Assembly: GCA_018399955.1 (NCBI GenBank)
Contig: JAGYNO010000012.1
Span: 1 to 33,123 of the forward strand
Source of the DNA: Halanaerobium sp.
GTDB taxonomy: Bacteria; Bacillota; Halanaerobiia; Halanaerobiales; Halanaerobiaceae
Length of the DNA stretch: 33,123 nt
Direction: 5' to 3'
Under the pieces are notes generated by a model. That model searched no databases. It was not told the origin of the DNA and saw nothing but the letters and a program-made list of their open reading frames with translations. Below are positions 902 through 23,628 of the stretch, piece after piece. The translations under genes were made by a program, and so were the position numbers. How positions within the stretch are numbered: position 1 is the first letter of the stretch; each line of letters starts with the position of its first letter.

Positions 902-930
902 TTGACAAAGTTAAATTTTTAATATATACT
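902..930 (+). promoter_or_regulatory. Sigma-A promoter of the trp operon
   Basis: TTGACA at 902-907 and TATACT at 925-930 are separated by exactly 17 bp. The predicted start is about 937, which gives a trpE leader of roughly 480 nt. The -35 box lies only 7 bp from the -35 box of the divergent ArsR promoter. Together they form an inverted repeat, TTTGTCAA-N7-TTGACAAA. Confidence 0.85.
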
Positions 931-942
931 AAAAAAAATTAC

Positions 943-1003
943 AAGATGAGAAGAGCCCAGCTTAGTAAAGATTAGATTGAGATGAGATGAGAAGAGCAGA
1001 TAG
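943..1003 (+). promoter_or_regulatory. TRAP (MtrB)-type binding site: 11-12 NAG triplets in the trp leader
   Basis: The triplets are AAG 943, GAG 948, GAG 953, CAG 958, UAG 963, AAG 968, UAG 973, GAG 979, GAG 984, GAG 989, GAG 994 and UAG 1001. All spacers are 2 nt except one of 3 nt (before 979) and one of 4 nt (before 1001). TRAP, the tryptophan-activated RNA-binding attenuation protein of Bacillus, is an 11-subunit ring that wraps RNA carrying 11 G/UAG repeats with 2-3 nt spacers. The number, spacing and position directly upstream of trpE all match. The site begins only about 6 nt after the predicted transcription start, without the 5' stem-loop seen in B. subtilis. No mtrB gene is in the window. 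Confidence 0.75.
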
Positions 1004-1021
1004 TATTTTATTAAACCAGGC
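955..1021 (+). promoter_or_regulatory. Predicted trp antiterminator hairpin
   Basis: Bases 962-970 (UUAGUAAAG) can pair with 1006-1014 (UUUUAUUAA, two G-U pairs). After a short mismatch, GCC 955-957 can pair with GGC 1019-1021. The left arm lies within the NAG-triplet run. The right arm overlaps the left arm of the terminator at 1013-1044. Binding of a TRAP-like ring would therefore block this fold and favour termination. The pairing was found by eye, with no energy calculation. Confidence 0.5.
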
Positions 1022-1053
1022 GGGGACATATATATGCGTGGTTTTTATTATTT
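1013..1053 (+). terminator. First trp leader terminator (attenuator)
   Basis: AAACCA (1013-1018) pairs with UGGUUU (1039-1044). GC/GC pairs continue inside after one G-G mismatch. A U-rich tail follows (UUUUUAUUAUUUAUU from 1042). It is modest in strength, as expected of a conditional attenuator, and is mutually exclusive with the antiterminator. Confidence 0.55.
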
Positions 1054-1055
1054 AT

Positions 1056-1093
1056 TAGAGATCAGCAGGAGATGAGAGACAATTTTAGATTAG
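1056..1093 (+). promoter_or_regulatory. Second, looser NAG cluster in the trp leader
   Basis: After the first terminator come UAG 1056 or GAG 1058, CAG 1063, GAG 1069, GAG 1074, UAG 1086 and UAG 1091. Several are 2-3 nt apart, but there is a gap at 1077-1085. It could be a partial second TRAP contact or simply purine-rich sequence. Confidence 0.25.
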
Positions 1094-1347
1094 TGGATAT
1101 GCTTTATTTTATTATGATTATAAATTTTTAAAATTAAAGCAGAAGTACTGCTTGAATAAAGTGCAGTATCTATAAATCTGTTTTTGGGACAATTTATATA
1201 ATATCTATTTAAGATTAAAATCTAAAATTATATCTTTTAAAATCATCTTTACAGAATACCTGTATCTCTAGATAATGACTAATAATTTTTAAAATATTAT
1301 TTCATAAATATCTGTTCTAAATCAAATATCTATAATCAAGACTTACT
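1094..1347 (+). other. Remainder of trp leader; alternative small hairpins
   Basis: No gene is seen here. Two mutually exclusive hairpins can form: AAGCAG/CUGCUU (1137-1142 with 1148-1153), or GUACUGC/GCAGUAU (1145-1151 with 1163-1169). The copy of UGCAGUA near 1162 could also pair over a long range with UACUGCA at 1344-1350, at the edge of the second terminator. No T-box consensus, Trp-codon leader peptide or known riboswitch was found. Confidence 0.35.
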
Positions 1348-1387
1348 GCAGTCAGGCTTTTTAATTAAAGTTTTGGCTGTTTTTTTG
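1348..1387 (+). terminator. Second terminator, directly before trpE
   Basis: CAGUCA (1349-1354) pairs with UGGCUG (1374-1379). Two G-U pairs and CUUU/AAAG (1357-1360 with 1367-1370) close a 6-nt loop. Seven U (1380-1386) follow at once. The tail ends about 16 nt before the trpE ribosome-binding site, so it must be read through or prevented for the operon to be expressed. Confidence 0.65.
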
Positions 1388-1414: not shown

Positions 1415-2926
1415 ATGAAAAGTAGAGATGAATTTATAGAACTTACAGATAAATATAATATGATTCCAATTTATGATGAATTTATTGCAGATACTCAGAC
1501 ACCGATTTCTCTATATAAAAAACTGGCTTTAGATAATGATTATACTTATCTTCTTGAAAGCTCAGAAAATGATCGGTATTCATTTATTGGTTTGAAACCG
1601 GCGGCTGTTTTAAAAAATTATCCAGATTATTTGGAAATTAGCCGAGAAAATACTAATAAAAAGCTGCAGAATCAGGAATTAATACCATATCTGCAGAACT
1701 ATCTAAAAAAGATTAGAGTATATGAAAGTGAGGATCTTCCGCCCTTTTCAGGTGGTTTTGTCGGTTATTTTAATTACGAAATGATAGAAAAATGGGAAGA
1801 TATCTATCATCTTGAAGCCGAAAAAGAATTGAAAAAGGATAATACTCCTCTCAGTATATTAGTTATGACAAGGATAATTATAGCGTATGATCACCTGCAC
1901 AACACTGTAAAGATTATTAACAATATAAAAATTGACAGTAATTTGGATAGGGCAGCCAAAAAGAGAATCTTTGCAGAGGCAGCAGAGGAGATAGAAGAAG
2001 TTAAGCGGGCAATTGCGAATAATTCTTCACTAGATATAAGTGGTGAAAATGATTATCAGCCGCTAGAAAATAGAAAACTGAAGTCGAATACAACGAAAAG
2101 AGAATTTAAAAAGATGGTAGAAAAAGCAAAAGAGCATATTAAAGCAGGAGATATATTTCAGATCGTACTCTCACAAAAATTTTCTGTAGAAAATGATCTG
2201 CCGCCTTTTAAAATATATAGAGCTCTGCGTTCGGTTAATCCCTCACCATATTCTTTTTATTTGAATTTTCCCGAGATTAATATCATTGGTTCTTCACCAG
2301 AGGTTCTTGTGAGGGTGAGAGACAAACACGTAATTACTAGACCATTAGCTGGAACCAGACCCAGAGGGAAGAATTCTAACGAAGATGAAAAGTTAAGATT
2401 AGATCTTTTAAATGATGAAAAAGAGAAAGCTGAACATACAATGCTTTTAGACCTGGGGCGTAATGATTTGAGCAGAATTGCAGCAGCAGGAACTGTAGAA
2501 GTAACTGAGCTGATGGAGGTAGAATTCTACTCAAAGGTAATGCACATAGTCTCACAGGTAGAGGCTGATCTGAGAGAAGGTTTGGACAGTTTGGATGTAC
2601 TTAAAGCGGTTTTCCCGGCTGGTACGGTTTCGGGAGCACCAAAAATAAAAGCAATAGAGTTAATAGATGGGCTGGAAAAAGATCCCCGAGGTGTCTATGC
2701 TGGAACGGTTGCCTATCTCAGTTTTAATGGAAATCTTGACAGCTGTATTACAATCAGAACTTTTTCGCTTACAGAAGGACGCTTAAATCTACAGGTTGGA
2801 GCAGGTATTGTTGCAGATTCTGACCCGATCAAAGAATATCAGGAAACACTTAATAAAGGTCAGGCATTGTTTGATGCACTGCAGATCGTCAGGGAGGATG
2901 GTATCCGTGATTTTAGTAATAGATAA
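1415..2926 (+). CDS. trpE: Anthranilate synthase component I
   Basis: TrpE converts chorismate to anthranilate with ammonia supplied by TrpG; this is the first committed step of tryptophan synthesis. The 503-residue length is usual. The ATG at 1415 is chosen because AAGGAGG lies 5 nt upstream; an in-frame start at 1373 would fall inside the terminator hairpin. LLESSENDRYSFIG near the N-terminus carries the LLES motif of the tryptophan feedback site. The chorismate-binding core shows GDIFQIVLSQKF, PLAGTRPRG, LDLGRNDLSRIA and GAPKIKAIELIDGLE. It is the first gene of trpEGDCFBA and its 3' end overlaps trpG by 20 nt. Confidence 0.97.
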   Translation: MKSRDEFIELTDKYNMIPIYDEFIADTQTPISLYKKLALDNDYTYLLESSENDRYSFIGLKPAAVLKNYPDYLEISRENTNKKLQNQELIPYLQNYLKKIRVYESEDLPPFSGGFVGYFNYEMIEKWEDIYHLEAEKELKKDNTPLSILVMTRIIIAYDHLHNTVKIINNIKIDSNLDRAAKKRIFAEAAEEIEEVKRAIANNSSLDISGENDYQPLENRKLKSNTTKREFKKMVEKAKEHIKAGDIFQIVLSQKFSVENDLPPFKIYRALRSVNPSPYSFYLNFPEINIIGSSPEVLVRVRDKHVITRPLAGTRPRGKNSNEDEKLRLDLLNDEKEKAEHTMLLDLGRNDLSRIAAAGTVEVTELMEVEFYSKVMHIVSQVEADLREGLDSLDVLKAVFPAGTVSGAPKIKAIELIDGLEKDPRGVYAGTVAYLSFNGNLDSCITIRTFSLTEGRLNLQVGAGIVADSDPIKEYQETLNKGQALFDALQIVREDGIRDFSNR

Positions 2927-3476
2927 TTATGATTCATTTACCTATAATTTGGTTCATATGCTTGAAGAATTTGATGAAGTTAAAGTGATGCGAAATGATC
3001 GGATAACAGTAAATGATATTGCAATTCTGGCACCTGAAAAGATAATAATTTCTCCTGGCCCGGGAAGACCTGATGATGCTGGTGTTTCTAAAAATGTAGT
3101 TGATTATTTTAAAGATAAAATATCTATACTTGGTGTCTGTCTTGGCCACCAGTGTATTGGTGAGGTCTTTGGTTCAAAGGTGGTCGAAGCTGACAGAATT
3201 GTTCACGGTAAGGTTTCTGCAATTTTGAAGTCGAAAAAAGATGATGATAGATTGTTTAAAGGGATTGAAGACGCATTTGCAGCAACACGCTATCACTCAC
3301 TTATTGTTGATAAGCAGAGTTTAAGTAATGAGCTGGAGATACTTGCAGAGAGTGATGAAGGAGAAATAATGGCACTCAAACACCGCAGATATCCAGTTTA
3401 TGGTGTTCAGTTTCATCCTGAATCAATTTTAACTGAAGCAGGTCGTGAGATCATCAAAAATTTTTTAAAACTTTAA
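2907..3476 (+). CDS. trpG: Anthranilate synthase component II (glutamine amidotransferase)
   Basis: TrpG hydrolyses glutamine and passes ammonia to TrpE. The class I amidotransferase triad is visible: the Cys nucleophile in GVCLGHQCIG, and His and Glu in GVQFHPES. YHSLIVD is also typical. The GTG start at 2907 is preferred because the product then begins VILVIDNYDSFTYN, as in the family, with GGGAGG 9 nt upstream. An ATG at 2898 abuts that site. The result is 189 residues, the usual size for a stand-alone subunit. The overlap with trpE suggests coupled translation of the two partners. Confidence 0.96.
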   Translation: MILVIDNYDSFTYNLVHMLEEFDEVKVMRNDRITVNDIAILAPEKIIISPGPGRPDDAGVSKNVVDYFKDKISILGVCLGHQCIGEVFGSKVVEADRIVHGKVSAILKSKKDDDRLFKGIEDAFAATRYHSLIVDKQSLSNELEILAESDEGEIMALKHRRYPVYGVQFHPESILTEAGREIIKNFLKL

Positions 3477-3481
3477 ATTCA

Positions 3482-3516
3482 GATAAATAATTTAAAATTT
3501 GAGTTTATCACTTTTT
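3482..3516 (+). terminator. Weak intercistronic hairpin between trpG and trpD
   Basis: GATAAA (3482-3487) and TTTATC (3504-3509) can pair across a 16-nt AT-rich loop, followed by CTTTTTAG. If it acts at all, it would only reduce downstream transcription, since trpD has its own GGAGGAG site and the operon continues. Confidence 0.25.
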
Positions 3517-3544
3517 AGTTAAGAATACTAGAGGAGGAGAGAAT

Positions 3545-4564
3545 ATGTTTAACAAGCATTTAGATAAAGTTGTGAGCAGAGAAAATTTGAGTTTAGCTGA
3601 GATGGAAGAAGCAATGTCAATGGTTATGGAGGGTAAAACCACTGATAGTCAGCTGGCAGGCTTTTTAGTTGGTCTGCGGATGAAGGGAGAAACTATAGAT
3701 GAAATCACCGGAGCAGCTTCAGTAATGAGAAATAAGGCAGCAGCTGTCAGCACAAAAGCTGACAATTTGATTGACAGCTGTGGGACAGGTGGTGATGAAA
3801 AGGGGACATTTAATATTTCTACAACTACGGCAATTGTAATGGCTGCTGGAGGTTTGAATGTAGCAAAACATGGTAATCGTTCTGTTTCATCAAAAAGCGG
3901 CAGTGCAGATCTGCTGGAAGCCTTAGGTGTTAAAATCGATTTAGATCCAGAATTAGCAGGCAGATGCCTGGATGAAATTGGAATCTCATTTCTTTTTGCT
4001 CCTCATTTTCATCAAGCTATGAAATATGCTGTTGGTCCGCGCAGAGAATTGGGCTTACGGACAATTTTTAATATCTTAGGACCGCTCACCAATCCGGCAA
4101 AGGCAGATTATCAAATACTTGGGGTCTACAAGGAGGAGCTGGTTTTACCGCTGGCCCATGTCTTAAAAAATCTTGGTCTAAAATCAGCGATGGTAGTTCA
4201 TGGAGCAGGTGGAGTTGATGAGCTTTCACTGGCAGGAGAAAATAAGACTGCTTATCTAAAAGATGGAGAAGTTAGAGAATACAATTTTACTCCAGCAGAA
4301 GCGGGTCTAGAAACAGCTCCAATTGAAGCGATATTAGGTGGAACACCTGAAGAGAATAAAGAAATAACACTTGCTATTTTAAATGGAGAAAAGGGGCCAA
4401 GGAGAGATGTGATTCTACTTAATGCTGCAGCTGCCTTTATGGTAGAAAGTAAGGTCAATAATCTAAAAGATGGAGTAAAAATGGCTGCAGAAATAATAGA
4501 CTCGGGTAAAGCTTTAAAAAAATTAGACGAATTAATTGCCTGCAGCAGATCACTGGCGGTGTAA
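3545..4564 (+). CDS. trpD: Anthranilate phosphoribosyltransferase
   Basis: TrpD transfers phosphoribose from PRPP to anthranilate. The 339 residues contain DSCGTGGDEKGTFNISTTTA, which binds the PRPP pyrophosphate, and VAKHGNRSVSSKSGSADLLE, the anthranilate/PRPP site, plus the GPRRELGLRTIFNILGPLTN segment of the family. It is a separate protein, not fused to TrpG. A GGAGGAG site lies just before the ATG, and trpC follows after 2 nt. Confidence 0.97.
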   Translation: MFNKHLDKVVSRENLSLAEMEEAMSMVMEGKTTDSQLAGFLVGLRMKGETIDEITGAASVMRNKAAAVSTKADNLIDSCGTGGDEKGTFNISTTTAIVMAAGGLNVAKHGNRSVSSKSGSADLLEALGVKIDLDPELAGRCLDEIGISFLFAPHFHQAMKYAVGPRRELGLRTIFNILGPLTNPAKADYQILGVYKEELVLPLAHVLKNLGLKSAMVVHGAGGVDELSLAGENKTAYLKDGEVREYNFTPAEAGLETAPIEAILGGTPEENKEITLAILNGEKGPRRDVILLNAAAAFMVESKVNNLKDGVKMAAEIIDSGKALKKLDELIACSRSLAV

Positions 4565-4566
4565 TA

Positions 4567-5310
4567 ATGATTTTAGATAAAATAATCTTAGAAAAGAAAA
4601 AAGAAGTGGCTGAAATAAAAAAACAGGGTGCCTCTCTCCAGGAAAAACTTAAAGAAGATAAATTAAGTCTTCTCGCAGAAATAAAAAAAGCGTCTCCAAG
4701 TAAAGGCTTAATTCAGAAAAATTTCAATCCAGCAGTACAGCTTAAAGCCTATAAAGAGGCCGGTGCAGACTGTATATCAATTTTAACTGATCAAAAATTT
4801 TTCCAGGGAAGTAATCAGATTTTAAGAGAGGTGCGAAAACTTACCGAGCTGCCAATTTTGCGCAAAGAATTTATTATTGACCCACTCCAAATATATGAGA
4901 GCTTCTTTATAGGAGCTGATGTCATTCTGCTGATTGCAGCTGTACTAGAGCTTGAAGAGCTAAAACAATTGCTAGACCTTACAAAAAAACTCAATCTTGA
5001 AGCCATTGTAGAGGTTCATAACCAAACAGAACTTGAAGCTGTTATCAAAACAGATGCTGAAATAATTGGAATTAATAATAGAAATTTAAATGATTTTAGT
5101 GTTGATCTAAAAACAACAGAAAAGCTATTGAAAATTATTGAAAATAAAGCTTTGAGAGATCAATATTCTATCATTGCAGAAAGTGGAATAAAAACAAAAA
5201 AAGATATCGAGTACATAAAGGAATTAGGTGTTGATGGTGTTTTAATCGGTGAGACTTTGATGAAAGCCGAGAATCCTGAAGCTAAAATAAGAGAACTGGG
5301 CTTAGCTTGA
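4567..5310 (+). CDS. trpC: Indole-3-glycerol phosphate synthase
   Basis: TrpC closes the indole ring from CdRP, releasing CO2 and water. The 247 residues form the expected TIM barrel. The catalytic Lys region LLAEIKKASPSKGLI, the beta-strand motif LRKEFIIDPLQIYES, IGINNRNLNDFSVDL and the C-terminal phosphate-binding GVDGVLIGETLM are present. It is not fused to TrpF, unlike the enteric enzyme. It begins 2 nt after the trpD stop. Confidence 0.97.
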   Translation: MILDKIILEKKKEVAEIKKQGASLQEKLKEDKLSLLAEIKKASPSKGLIQKNFNPAVQLKAYKEAGADCISILTDQKFFQGSNQILREVRKLTELPILRKEFIIDPLQIYESFFIGADVILLIAAVLELEELKQLLDLTKKLNLEAIVEVHNQTELEAVIKTDAEIIGINNRNLNDFSVDLKTTEKLLKIIENKALRDQYSIIAESGIKTKKDIEYIKELGVDGVLIGETLMKAENPEAKIRELGLA

Positions 5311-5336
5311 TCAGCTTAGAGATGGGAGGGTTTAAT

Positions 5337-5969
5337 TTGAGTTACAGAAGGACAATGATTAAAGTCTGTGGTATGACCCGCAGAGAAGATATAGAATTTG
5401 CAGTTGAGCTTGGGGTAGATGCACTTGGCTTTATCTTGGCTGAAAGTCCAAGAAAGGTTGAACTAGAAACTGTAAAAATGCTGGTTAGTGATCTGCCGCC
5501 TTTTATTGATAGAATAGCAGTTTTGGTGAACCCTGAATCGGAAAAAATAGACAGAATTATAGAAAGCGGGCTTTTTAATTATATTCAGCTGCACGGCAGT
5601 GAAGATCCTGAGATGATTAAGAAGCTGCCTTTAAAAACAATTAAAGCTATTTCTGTAGCAGGTAAAGAAGATTTAAAGAAAATTGATATATATAAAGAGG
5701 CTGCTGATTATCTTCTTTTTGATACTAAAATAGGGAGACAGACAGGTGGAACAGGTGAAAGTTTCGATTGGTCTCTTTTAAGAGAAAGCAGATACAAAAA
5801 AAAATATATATTGGCAGGTGGTTTGGGAGCAGATAATATAGAACTTGCTCTAAAATGCTTAAATCCTGCTGCAGTAGATATCAACAGCCAGGTAGAAAGT
5901 TCACCTGGGAAAAAAGATCAGCAGCTGCTTAAAGAAACTCTTGAAATTATTAAAGAATTTACAAAATAA
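5337..5969 (+). CDS. trpF: Phosphoribosylanthranilate isomerase
   Basis: TrpF performs the Amadori rearrangement of PRA to CdRP. MIKVCGMTRRED carries the catalytic Cys; VDALGFILAESPRKVE, LFDT, LAGGLGADNIELAL and VDINSQVESSPGKKD follow the family pattern, with the catalytic Asp in LFDT. TTG at 5337 is chosen as start because GGGAGGG ends 6 nt before it, giving 210 residues. A TTG overlapping the trpC stop (5307) has no suitable site, and the inner ATG at 5355 has too short a spacing. Confidence 0.94.
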   Translation: MSYRRTMIKVCGMTRREDIEFAVELGVDALGFILAESPRKVELETVKMLVSDLPPFIDRIAVLVNPESEKIDRIIESGLFNYIQLHGSEDPEMIKKLPLKTIKAISVAGKEDLKKIDIYKEAADYLLFDTKIGRQTGGTGESFDWSLLRESRYKKKYILAGGLGADNIELALKCLNPAAVDINSQVESSPGKKDQQLLKETLEIIKEFTK

Positions 5970-5998
5970 AGAAGAAGCAGGCCTGATATAAGAACTAT

Positions 5999-6026
5999 TT
6001 TTTTAAATTTAATTAAATTTAAAAAA
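5999..6026. repeat. 28-bp perfect AT-only palindrome
   Basis: The sequence between trpF and trpB reads as T6-A3-T3-AA followed by its exact reverse complement. As RNA it could fold into a hairpin of A-U pairs; as DNA it could be a protein site. It lies 41 nt before the trpB ATG. Confidence 0.6.
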
Positions 6027-6067
6027 CAATAATAAACTATATTATTTATTTGGAAGGAGTCAGAAAA

Positions 6068-7252
6068 ATGAGTAGAGGATATTTTAATGAATTTGGGGGG
6101 CGTTTTGTTCCAGAAACTCTGATACCAGCCCTGGATGAACTGGAGGAGGTTTATTTGGAATTAAAAGAGGATCCAGATTTCAAAGCACAGCTTAAGTCGC
6201 TTTTAGCTGATTACAGCGGCAGACCGACCTCATTATATTATGCTGAACAATTGAGCAGCCATTATGGAGGAGCAAAGATTTATCTAAAAAGAGAAGATTT
6301 AAATCATACAGGTGCACATAAAATTAATAATACTTTAGGGCAGATTTTACTTGCAGTTAAAATGGGAAAAAAGAGAATAATAGCTGAAACGGGAGCAGGT
6401 CAGCATGGAGTTGCCACAGCAACCGTTGCAGCCCGCTTTAATCTAGACTGCCAGGTATATATGGGTACAGAAGATATAGAAAGACAGGCCTTGAATGTAT
6501 ATAAGATGGAGATGCTGGGAGCTGAAGTAATTCCAGTTACCTCAGGTACCCAAACCTTAAAAGATGCAACAAATGAAGCAATAAGAGACTGGGTGACAAA
6601 TGTAGAAGATACCCATTATATAATAGGCTCTGTAGTTGGTCCTCACCCATATCCAATGATGGTGCGTGATTTTCAGAGAATTATTGGTGATGAAACACGA
6701 GAACAGATTATGAAAAAAGAAGGAAGATTACCTGACTATATATTAGCCTGTGTTGGTGGTGGAAGTAATGCAATGGGAATTTTTTATCCTTTTGTCGAAG
6801 ATAAAGAGGTCAATTTAGTTGGTATAGAAGCTTCAGGCAGTGGTATTGAAAGTGGAAAACATGCAGCAACTCTATCGGCTGGTCGAGTTGGAGTGTTACA
6901 TGGGAGTAAGTCATATCTGCTCCAGGATGAAGATGGTCAGATTATTCCTGCTTACTCTATCTCGGCTGGACTTGACTATCCAGGGGTAGGGCCTGAACAC
7001 AGTTATCTTAAAACTATAGAGAGAGTCGAATATCAATCAGCTACAGATATGGAGGCTGTAAATGCATTTCGATTACTTTCAGAAAAAGAAGGAATAATAC
7101 CTGCATTAGAAAGTTCTCATGCTCTATCATATTTAGAAAAACTGGCTCCAGAGCTTGATTCAACTGCAATTATTGTAGTTAATCTTTCAGGCCGTGGGGA
7201 TAAAGATATTAATAATTTTAAAAAGATCAGGGAGGCCGAAGCCGATGCTTAA
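6068..7252 (+). CDS. trpB: Tryptophan synthase beta chain
   Basis: TrpB condenses indole with serine on pyridoxal phosphate. The PLP lysine lies in [30 protein letters not shown] contains the catalytic Glu, and [12 protein letters not shown] binds the cofactor phosphate. The 394 residues and start [17 protein letters not shown] fit the classical TrpB1 form that works with TrpA. The ATG at 6068 has GGAAGGAG 8 nt upstream; an in-frame TTG at 6050 precedes that site and is unlikely. It overlaps trpA by 8 nt. Confidence 0.97.
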
Positions 7253-8036
7253 TATAAGTGAACAATTTAAAGGAAAAAAACCGTTGATTACCTATATAAG
7301 TGGAGGTGACCCCAGCCTTGAGATGACAGAAAAAATTATCTATAGGCTGCAGGATGAGGGAGTTGATATTATAGAGATTGGAATTCCTTTTTCTGATCCG
7401 CTTGCAGATGGCCCTGTGATTCAGGCAGCTTCTCAGAGAGCTTTGGAAAATGGTACATCTTTAAAGAAACTTATTGCTAAAATTAAAGATATAAAAGCGA
7501 ATGTCAAAGTGCCAATTGTTTTAATGGGATATTATAATTCGGTATTGAATTATGGAGAGCATCAATTTGCAAAAGATATCAGTGAGGCAGGAATATCTGG
7601 TGTTATTATTCCTGATCTCCCTGTAGATGAAAGAGCTAAACTGACTGAAGAATTAAAAGCAAAGGGGGTTTCGCAGATTCTGCTGGTAACTCCTAATACT
7701 TCTGAAAAACGCCTGGAAGAAATCGCTGCAAAATGTTCAGGATTTCTTTATTGTGTTGCCCTACTGGGGACAACAGGTGATGCAAGAGAGCCTTATCCAG
7801 AGTTGGAAGGTTATTTAAATAGGGTTAGAAGATTTTCAGGTGATCTTCCTTTAGGACTTGGTTTTGGTATAGATGGTCCTGAAAAAGTAAAGAAAATAAT
7901 TAATTATCCAGATGGGATAATTATCGGAAGTGCTTTAATAGAAGCTATTCAGATAGGGAATACAGAAACAGAAATGTTAAATAATGCTGGTGAATTTGTC
8001 AGAGAAATAAAAAGAGCTATTAAAGATTATAGTTAA
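7245..8036 (+). CDS. trpA: Tryptophan synthase alpha chain
   Basis: TrpA cleaves indole-3-glycerol phosphate to indole, which passes through a tunnel to TrpB. The 263-residue barrel shows [30 protein letters not shown] (containing the catalytic Glu and Asp), [11 protein letters not shown] and GLGFGID. The ATG at 7245 lies within the end of trpB with GGGAGG about 10 nt upstream. It is the last gene of the operon. Confidence 0.97.
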
Positions 8037-17159: not shown

Positions 17160-17711
17160 TTAATCTGGTTGTGGGATTTTGTAATCAATTTTAGAGAAAA
17201 AATTACCAAGTAAAATTGAGCTGATAATTACTAAAGGTAATGAAACTCCAATTCTAATTGCTGTAAATTTAATACCAAGTATTGATGCTTCCATAATACT
17301 CATTGGTATCATTACAAGTGAAGCGGCGGTTACATAAGTGAATATTGAAGAATAATTAGCACCTTTATGATAAAGACTGTTTGCTACAGGAAATGCAACA
17401 AATGTACCACCAACTGTAGTTGCGGCTAAAAGTACTGCATAAATATATTTTTTAAAACCTGAAGTGTTTCCAAAATTATTTTCAATACTTTCTCTGCTGA
17501 CCCAGACTTCAAATAGTCCTATTAAAACAAATGCTGGTGGGAGAATTGCTCCCATATCTTTAGCAAATATCATAAAATTAGAAGTGATTCTATTTCCAAG
17601 TTCAAAATTTAAAAAATAAGAAGCTATCATAAATACCGAGAATACTGCAAATATATAATAGTTTATTTTATTTTTCTGATTAGTTTTCTGTTTTTTATCT
17701 TTTTTACTCAT
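17160..17711 (-). CDS. Permease, C-terminal half protein (ArsP_1/DUF318-like)
   Basis: This 183-residue membrane protein starts MSKKDKKQKTNQKNKINYY, a basic cytosolic tail, then four to five hydrophobic segments. The stretch GGTFVAFPVANSLYHKGANY followed by SSIFTYVTAAS resembles the repeated permease signature of the ArsP_1 (UPF0718) family and echoes a similar stretch in its partner. The Cys-rich motif of arsenical ArsP pumps is absent. The ATG at 17709-17711 overlaps the preceding stop by one base (TAATG), with GAGAGGTG 8 nt upstream. A longer frame up to 17792 lies in the partner gene and is rejected. The family call is from memory of the motif; the substrate is unknown. Confidence 0.7.
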   Translation of the reverse strand: MSKKDKKQKTNQKNKINYYIFAVFSVFMIASYFLNFELGNRITSNFMIFAKDMGAILPPAFVLIGLFEVWVSRESIENNFGNTSGFKKYIYAVLLAATTVGGTFVAFPVANSLYHKGANYSSIFTYVTAASLVMIPMSIMEASILGIKFTAIRIGVSLPLVIISSILLGNFFSKIDYKIPQPD

Positions 17712-18193
17712 TATACAAACACCTCTCCATAAAGTATTCCTGTCGCTAGAGCAATAAAAGCTGATATAATAAATCCTGCAATATTCCTCCATATTGTAGC
17801 TTTGATTCCGAAATATTCTTTTTCAACAGGATAAGTTGCAATTCCAACCAGCATTAAGGTAGTAATAAATGCTGCTACAACCATGTAATCAACACCTCTG
17901 GATACTAAAATTCCAGCCAGTGGATAAGCTATAAAGCCCGGCATCATAGTGATAGATCCAATAATCAGGCCCATGATTAGTCCGATAAACGGTGCCTGTC
18001 CCCCAAGATAATTGATAATAAATTGATCTGAAATAAGAAGAATAAATGATAATATAATTAAAAGTTTTAAATAGGTTCCTAAAATTTTATTGAATTTTTT
18101 CCAGCCAATTTTTAAAGCCTTAATTGTTTTTTCTCTGTCTGTAAGAAAAGAAACTGCAGCTGCAATACCTGCAATATAATATAGTGCGTACAT
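17711..18193 (-). CDS. Permease, N-terminal half protein (ArsP_1/DUF318-like)
   Basis: This 160-residue membrane protein has about four to five hydrophobic helices. The segment GSITMMPGFIAYPLAGILVS followed by RGVDYMVVAAF mirrors GTFVAFPVANSLYHKGANYS in the next gene. The two probably form the two inverted halves of one transporter. GAGGAGG precedes the ATG. The gene starts 18 bp after a CsoR-like operator, so it is likely induced by copper(I), persulfide or a related signal. It is not a broken gene: the second half has its own start, site and overlap. Unrelated two-gene permeases are a possible alternative. Confidence 0.7.
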   Translation of the reverse strand: MYALYYIAGIAAAVSFLTDREKTIKALKIGWKKFNKILGTYLKLLIILSFILLISDQFIINYLGGQAPFIGLIMGLIIGSITMMPGFIAYPLAGILVSRGVDYMVVAAFITTLMLVGIATYPVEKEYFGIKATIWRNIAGFIISAFIALATGILYGEVFV

Positions 18194-23160: not shown

Positions 23161-23628
23161 ATGAATTTATCAGATTTTACAATTGATGATTTTACAGAAA
23201 TTGATGGTGGACAGTCAATCGGTAAGGTAGCAGTGCTGCTGTCAATGGTTAATGACGAATATGATAAAAAGATAATTCAGGCATATAAAAACGTGGGGTA
23301 TAAGGCGGTTATTACCAGAGCAGGGGGTAAAGGTTCTAAACTTAAAGACAAAGTTTTAAGAAACTGCCTTGGTGCAGCAATTAAAGGTGATGTAATTTCA
23401 GATTCTGTTCAGGACCAAAGAATTTTAACAAGATGTGTTGAAAGAGCAATGGTTGATTTTGATAAGCCGCTTTCTGGAATTTCAGGAGCAGGTATCAAAA
23501 TAGGTATTGTCAGCAAAGAGCCGCATCTTGCTGTAGCTCTCTATGGTAAATTAGGTATTCCTGGTCTTGATGTAGACCACGAAATTTCAGGAATGGGGAT
23601 TCACTATTATGGACTCACTTCAAAATAA
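23161..23628 (+). CDS. HutP-family RNA-binding regulator, orphan
   Basis: HutP of Bacillus is an L-histidine- and Mg-dependent antiterminator that binds NAG-repeat RNA in the hut leader. This 155-residue protein matches its size and ends with HLAVALYGKLGIPGLDVDHE and ISGMGIHYYG, close to the HutP C-terminal block IAVSLYGTIGAPIKGLEHE. IGKVAVLLSMVND matches the first strand. His140 corresponds to a metal-ligand His. The other two ligand His of Bacillus HutP (near 73 and 77) are replaced here, by my alignment with Ile and Cys in DQRILTRCVERA. Its ligand may therefore differ. AGAGGTGG precedes the ATG. It overlaps the MsbA-like gene by 20 nt and heads the lipid A operon. No hut genes are nearby. 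Confidence 0.82.
   Translation: MNLSDFTIDDFTEIDGGQSIGKVAVLLSMVNDEYDKKIIQAYKNVGYKAVITRAGGKGSKLKDKVLRNCLGAAIKGDVISDSVQDQRILTRCVERAMVDFDKPLSGISGAGIKIGIVSKEPHLAVALYGKLGIPGLDVDHEISGMGIHYYGLTSK

Follow-up and report, generated by a model that had tools for sequence, protein, structure and literature searches.

A TRAP-type triplet run at the extreme 5' end of a Halanaerobium trp leader, followed by two tandem terminators

The trp operon of this Halanaerobium genome is very probably under TRAP control, exerted through a run of NAG triplets at the 5' end of its leader. The run lies in what we call the window, the whole 33,123-nucleotide stretch of DNA analysed here, where a structured leader of about 480 nt precedes genes in the order trpEGDCFBA. 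The features of the leader and operon are collected in Table 1, and the evidence for TRAP control comes from the run itself, from the TRAP gene (mtrB) and from a second set of runs at the trpP genes, while the way in which the run might govern the terminators behind it is drawn from RNA folding.

Table 1 Features of the trp leader and operon, in window positions
Feature	Position	Strand	Basis or remark
trp operon promoter, TTGACA-17-TATACT	902-930	+	11 of 12 consensus matches; near-constant spacing of -10 box to run in congeners
TRAP-type site, 11 in-register NAG triplets (AAG GAG GAG CAG TAG AAG TAG GAG GAG GAG GAG, 5' to 3')	943-996	+	register common to congeners; shuffles
GAGCCCAG unit, core of the predicted antiterminators	953-960	+	GAGCC(C/T)AG retained by most leaders of the order
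12th triplet TAG, extra, outside the register of most congeners	1001-1003	+	comparison with congeners
Middle leader, long, A+T-rich, self-folding (z -1.8)	1004-1342	+	folding
Terminator T1, hairpin dG -9.4, interrupted U-tract TTTTTATTATTT	1013-1044	+	directly after the run
Predicted pairing partner of run bases 950-979 (antiterminator versus T2)	1333-1362	+	nascent RNA folds
Terminator T2, 13-bp hairpin, dG -12.0, then TTTTTTTG	1348-1380	+	immediately ahead of the trpE ribosome-binding site
trpE (anthranilate synthase component I)	1415-2926	+	PF00425, PF04715
trpG, trpD, trpC, trpF, trpB, trpA (remainder of operon)	2796-8036	+	the trpG open frame begins at 2796, trpG itself further downstream

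The triplet run, its promoter and its conservation

Twelve NAG triplets occupy window positions 943-1003, starting at 943, 948, 953, 958, 963, 968, 973, 979, 984, 989, 994 and 1001. The start-to-start spacings of 5, 5, 5, 5, 5, 5, 6, 5, 5, 5 and 7 nt are exactly those of the near-regular 5-nt period, with 2-nt spacers, one of 3 and one of 4, that the initial annotation had described, and the two AAG triplets (943 and 968) and single CAG (958) that it had singled out are all present. The first eleven triplets share a register, with an extra base after triplet 7, that is common to most congeners; eight of these eleven are G/UAG and the other three are AAG or CAG, a point that counts against the TRAP reading. 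Scored with a simple period score, the run reaches 9.25, against only 3.6 for the remainder of the window. The best of 300 dinucleotide shuffles of the whole window scored 6.95, and the value of the run was reached by none of 2000 shuffles of positions 900-1420 and by none of 5000 shuffles of positions 937-1010, the 74 bases around the run itself.

The promoter that had been proposed in front of the run was recovered with 11 of 12 consensus matches. Since the distance from its -10 box to the first triplet is almost invariant in congeners, the run can be placed at about +5 to +7, in line with the earlier estimate of some 6 nt past the predicted start. A divergent sigma-70 promoter with a perfect 12/12 consensus (866-894, - strand) lies opposite the trp promoter and reads into an ArsR-type regulator gene (492-827) and then a gene weakly like TsoA.

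Conservation of the triplet period in relatives had been named beforehand as a point on which a TRAP reading could fail. Every congener with a trpE gene has the 5-nt run ahead of it, as do several other families of the order, and the promoter spacing and the GAGCC(C/T)AG unit accompany the run upstream of trpE across Halanaerobium and in further families of the Halanaerobiales. The same scan picks out the trp leaders of Thermolongibacillus, Paenibacillus, Heliorestis, Desulforadius and Thermosyntropha.

Short NAG runs (score up to 6.7) also lie over the trpD ribosome-binding site in several congeners, as at L038 3629-3663 and L039 3632-3671; the run at this site is weak in the window (3476-3560). 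These may represent a secondary TRAP site within the operon.

The TRAP gene and the trpP genes as a second target

A search of the genome for mtrB, likewise named in advance as a point of possible failure, found the gene at equivalog level. The window's own genome (1.87 Mb, 76% complete) carries one PF02081 gene, at C78:89353-89556 (profile search, E=1.3e-37, 128.7 bits), whose 74-aa product scores above the cut-off of the NCBIfam MtrB equivalog NF009724 (129.1 versus 117) and matches solved TRAP structures. Residues K35, K54, R56, T23, Q45, T47 and S51 are invariant in an alignment of 12 TRAPs, the first three of which we take to be the RNA-binding KKR of TRAP. The closest named organisms among the matches listed are Halanaerobium saccharolyticum, H. 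kushneri and H. polyolivorans.

Beyond this genome, 44 of the 49 good-quality relatives carry mtrB, and one species-level genome collection contains at least 546 TRAP loci, among Clostridia, relatives of Desulfotomaculum, Paenibacillus and others. TRAP control is thus likely to be widespread among Firmicutes and no peculiarity of Bacillus, and the Halanaerobium trp leader accordingly represents a variant layout of a TRAP system, not a novel type. TRAP has been studied, to our knowledge, almost solely in Bacillus; the initial view that it is best described in Bacillus relatives underrated how widely it is spread, and did not include the two terminators, the GAGCC unit or the trpP targets. Anti-TRAP (rtpA) is a Bacillus feature and not a universal one. 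In contrast to B. subtilis, there is no clear anti-TRAP gene here: no convincing candidate was found in the window's own genome or in the relatives' genomes searched, where the own match and nearly all others fell inside frames of 340-404 aa, presumably DnaJ zinc domain proteins, and one 78-aa frame in G015 lay below the cut-off.

We scanned genomes for runs with a strict 8-triplet pattern allowing 2 mismatches, with the backward pattern as control. In the window's own genome the control gave 0 matches and the strict pattern gave just two loci, the trp leader and the beginning of a tandem pair of genes, both TrpP by Pfam, where the runs cover the Shine-Dalgarno sequence and start codon of both genes. 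B. subtilis TRAP represses trpP by overlapping its ribosome-binding site. The placement of the Halanaerobium runs over these elements of TrpP-family genes is alike, the difference being that Halanaerobium has two tandem trpP genes, each with a run. The same TRAP may repress both transporter genes by covering their ribosome-binding sites.

Among the TRAP-bearing relatives examined, the trpP run mostly scores 5-8 against a local background near 2-3, although at a few loci the background sample takes in a neighbouring run or the run sits further upstream. In two genomes that lack mtrB (G018 and G024), trpP has no run (scores 2.6 and 2.45), and in four genomes with mtrB and no detected trpE (G007, G012, G013 and G014) the trpP run is kept. 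As judged from sequence comparison, this co-occurrence of mtrB and the trpP run is the best evidence that such runs are TRAP targets. One of the four, G007 (L025, L193), is a Halanaerobium, and with mtrB and the trpP run it forms a natural trp-minus TRAP system.

In congeners, single runs beside nadA (L152) and one other gene (L153) were considered as further TRAP targets and rejected, since in some genomes the backward controls are similarly frequent. The first of these, at about 1501-1540 of L152, stands directly before a nadA-like gene of congener G006 with 1 mismatch and could be chance.

Tandem terminators and predicted antiterminators

T1 is found in the window and in nine of ten congeners, L043 being the one without it. 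Its stem sequences differ, its U-tract is mostly uninterrupted, and its hairpin is stronger in congeners (dG -13 to -16) than in the window (-9.4). T2 has a homologue in all ten congeners compared and in three short-leader genomes of a second family; in that family (L042, L044, L045) T2 is present and there is no clear T1. In the alignment of the T2 hairpin 97% of cells are paired, and two pairs are altered on both sides. The middle leader varies in length among leaders from about 50 to 340 nt and forms self-contained hairpins in most of them (z mostly -3 to -9), only weakly so in the window; by the folding models, this self-folding may bring the run near T2. In H. saccharolyticum (L033, about 1250-1340) a GC-richer inverted repeat with a folding z of -9.4 is inserted in the middle leader, possibly a small mobile hairpin.

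In folds of nascent length, in which the RNA ends before the 3' arm of the terminator, the 5' arms of T1 and T2 pair with the run in all 20 leaders, mostly with 8-14 expected pairs. The pairing with T2 runs through the GCC of GAGCC(C/T)AG, its register being shared by the genus and the second family, and in the window the T2 hairpin has 1.5 expected pairs with the run free versus 8.9 with the run masked. Compared with runs whose triplets and spacers were permuted, the mean z is -0.9 for T1 and -1.4 for T2 (window, -2.7 and -1.4). Non-cognate runs often pair equally well, and the cognate run is seldom the best partner of its own terminator arms; because the run:arm energies reveal no clear cognate preference, we do not claim co-evolution of run and arm. 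In equilibrium folds of T1-length leaders the hairpin mostly persists even with the run free, so that any antitermination must depend on the order of transcription. With its layout conserved and pairing moderately in excess of permuted runs, the antiterminator step is plausible on these models.

The run and its conservation, the mtrB gene, the runs at trpP and the hairpins are computed; from them we infer that TRAP binds in a tryptophan-dependent way, that antitermination operates and that a single site controls both terminators. This would proceed as follows. When tryptophan is ample, the TRAP ring would wrap the 11 triplets once these are clear of RNA polymerase; T1, and T2 for polymerases that pass T1, would then form because the TRAP-bound run cannot pair with downstream leader RNA, and transcription would halt ahead of trpE. 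When tryptophan is scarce, TRAP would be off, the run, centred on GAGCCCAG, would pair with the 5' arm of T1 and then with that of T2, and the operon would be read. The full proposal, that a single 5'-end TRAP site sequentially governs tandem terminators ~60 and ~400 nt downstream, by way of two alternative antiterminators that draw on one GAGCC(C/T)AG segment, the second pairing over long range across a self-folding insert, is one that we put forward tentatively, at slightly less than an even chance.

It is quite conceivable, if somewhat doubtful, that TRAP binds the run but controls one terminator, with T2 as the attenuator and T1 as a structural or constitutive partial terminator, or the reverse. 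The lack of a clear T1 in the second family and in L043, the weak T1 of the window with its interrupted U-tract and the weak mean permutation support for run:T1 pairing all fit such an arrangement. Against this, T1 is retained in the window and nearly all congeners despite its differing stems, mostly with an unbroken U-tract, its 5' arm pairs with the run in nascent folds, and the T1 pairing of the window is stronger than that of 99.6% of permuted runs.

We regard it as unlikely that bound TRAP works here chiefly by terminating transcription directly or by blocking the translation of trpE, antiterminator pairing mattering little. The z values for antiterminator pairing are indeed only moderate in this leader set, B. 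subtilis TRAP is able to terminate transcription in the absence of the attenuator hairpin, and several attenuators of Bacillus are weak (PMC3913778). However, T2 and, in most congeners, T1 form strong hairpins followed by long U-tracts, unlike the Bacillus attenuators described there (PMC3913778), and the run retains GAGCC although the spacers of TRAP sites can otherwise vary freely.

Control by a Trp T-box or a Trp-rich leader peptide, the triplets being incidental, would likewise make the trp operon responsive to tryptophan, and such devices govern trp genes in many bacteria; the length (about 480 nt) and structure of the leader would suit them. We dropped this explanation as very improbable, since neither the leader nor the whole window matches a T-box or any other Rfam family and the leader holds no ORF with Trp codons; the pattern of co-occurrence of mtrB and the trpP run also argues against it. 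That the triplets are chance purine-rich, low-complexity sequence has next to no probability: the region is A/G-rich and weak NAG runs occur elsewhere in congener genomes, in some at rates near the backward control, but none of the shuffles of the same 74 bases attains the score and the register is kept across the genus.

Relation to known TRAP systems and the diderm host

As a TRAP system, the Halanaerobium trp operon can be set beside that of B. subtilis, in which trp attenuation relies on TRAP, a run of 11 NAG triplets (spacers of 2-3 nt) ahead of trpE and a terminator/antiterminator (PMC3913778). The 11-triplet run before trpE and the TRAP gene are common to both, and so may be the terminator/antiterminator layout, the antiterminators being predicted in Halanaerobium; the leader is about 480 nt long in Halanaerobium and 203 nt in B. 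subtilis (PMC3913778). In Halanaerobium, moreover, there are two tandem terminators, of which T2 is strong and has an unbroken U-tract, trpG is part of the operon, and the run sits at about +5, the extreme 5' end, with no 5' stem-loop before the triplets because few bases separate the predicted start from the run. Such a stem-loop is a feature of B. subtilis and not a universal one.

The TRAP systems of other Firmicutes, namely Paenibacillus, Heliorestis, Desulforadius, Thermosyntropha and Carboxydothermus, resemble that of Halanaerobium in having mtrB and NAG runs near trp genes and differ from it in the position of the run; some families have mtrB next to trpE together with several runs. At L003, L004, L006, L010, L021, L054 and L058, from such families, mtrB lies immediately upstream of trpE and 2-3 NAG runs precede trpE, some of them near its start. 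Our literature search found no report of TRAP in Halanaerobium; most subscription journals were outside its coverage, and earlier predictions are thus possible.

The host had been described as diderm and LPS-bearing, and the window bears this out, encoding LpxK, a CMP-KDO-type cytidylyltransferase, a KDO8P/DAHP-type synthase and a lipid A acyltransferase. It also encodes a HutP homologue (PF09021, E=5e-35; 23161-23628) that adjoins an ABC transporter, so that this diderm genome has a second RNA-binding antiterminator family known from Bacillus. At 17160-18193 (- strand), two overlapping frames, the first a permease match (PF03773), may be a single gene interrupted by a frameshift.

TRAP control of this operon would extend a textbook RNA-binding regulator to a diderm, LPS-making, halophilic Firmicute lineage, in which the two mtrB-less relatives whose trpP lacks the run provide a natural control. 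The strong terminators of these leaders would make hairpin-driven versus TRAP-driven termination testable, a question debated for Bacillus with its weak attenuators. If one site does govern both terminators, the system would amount to a TRAP attenuator with two gates in diderm Firmicutes, and its long-range, two-terminator leader would offer a route to testing how one protein-RNA complex gates polymerase twice.
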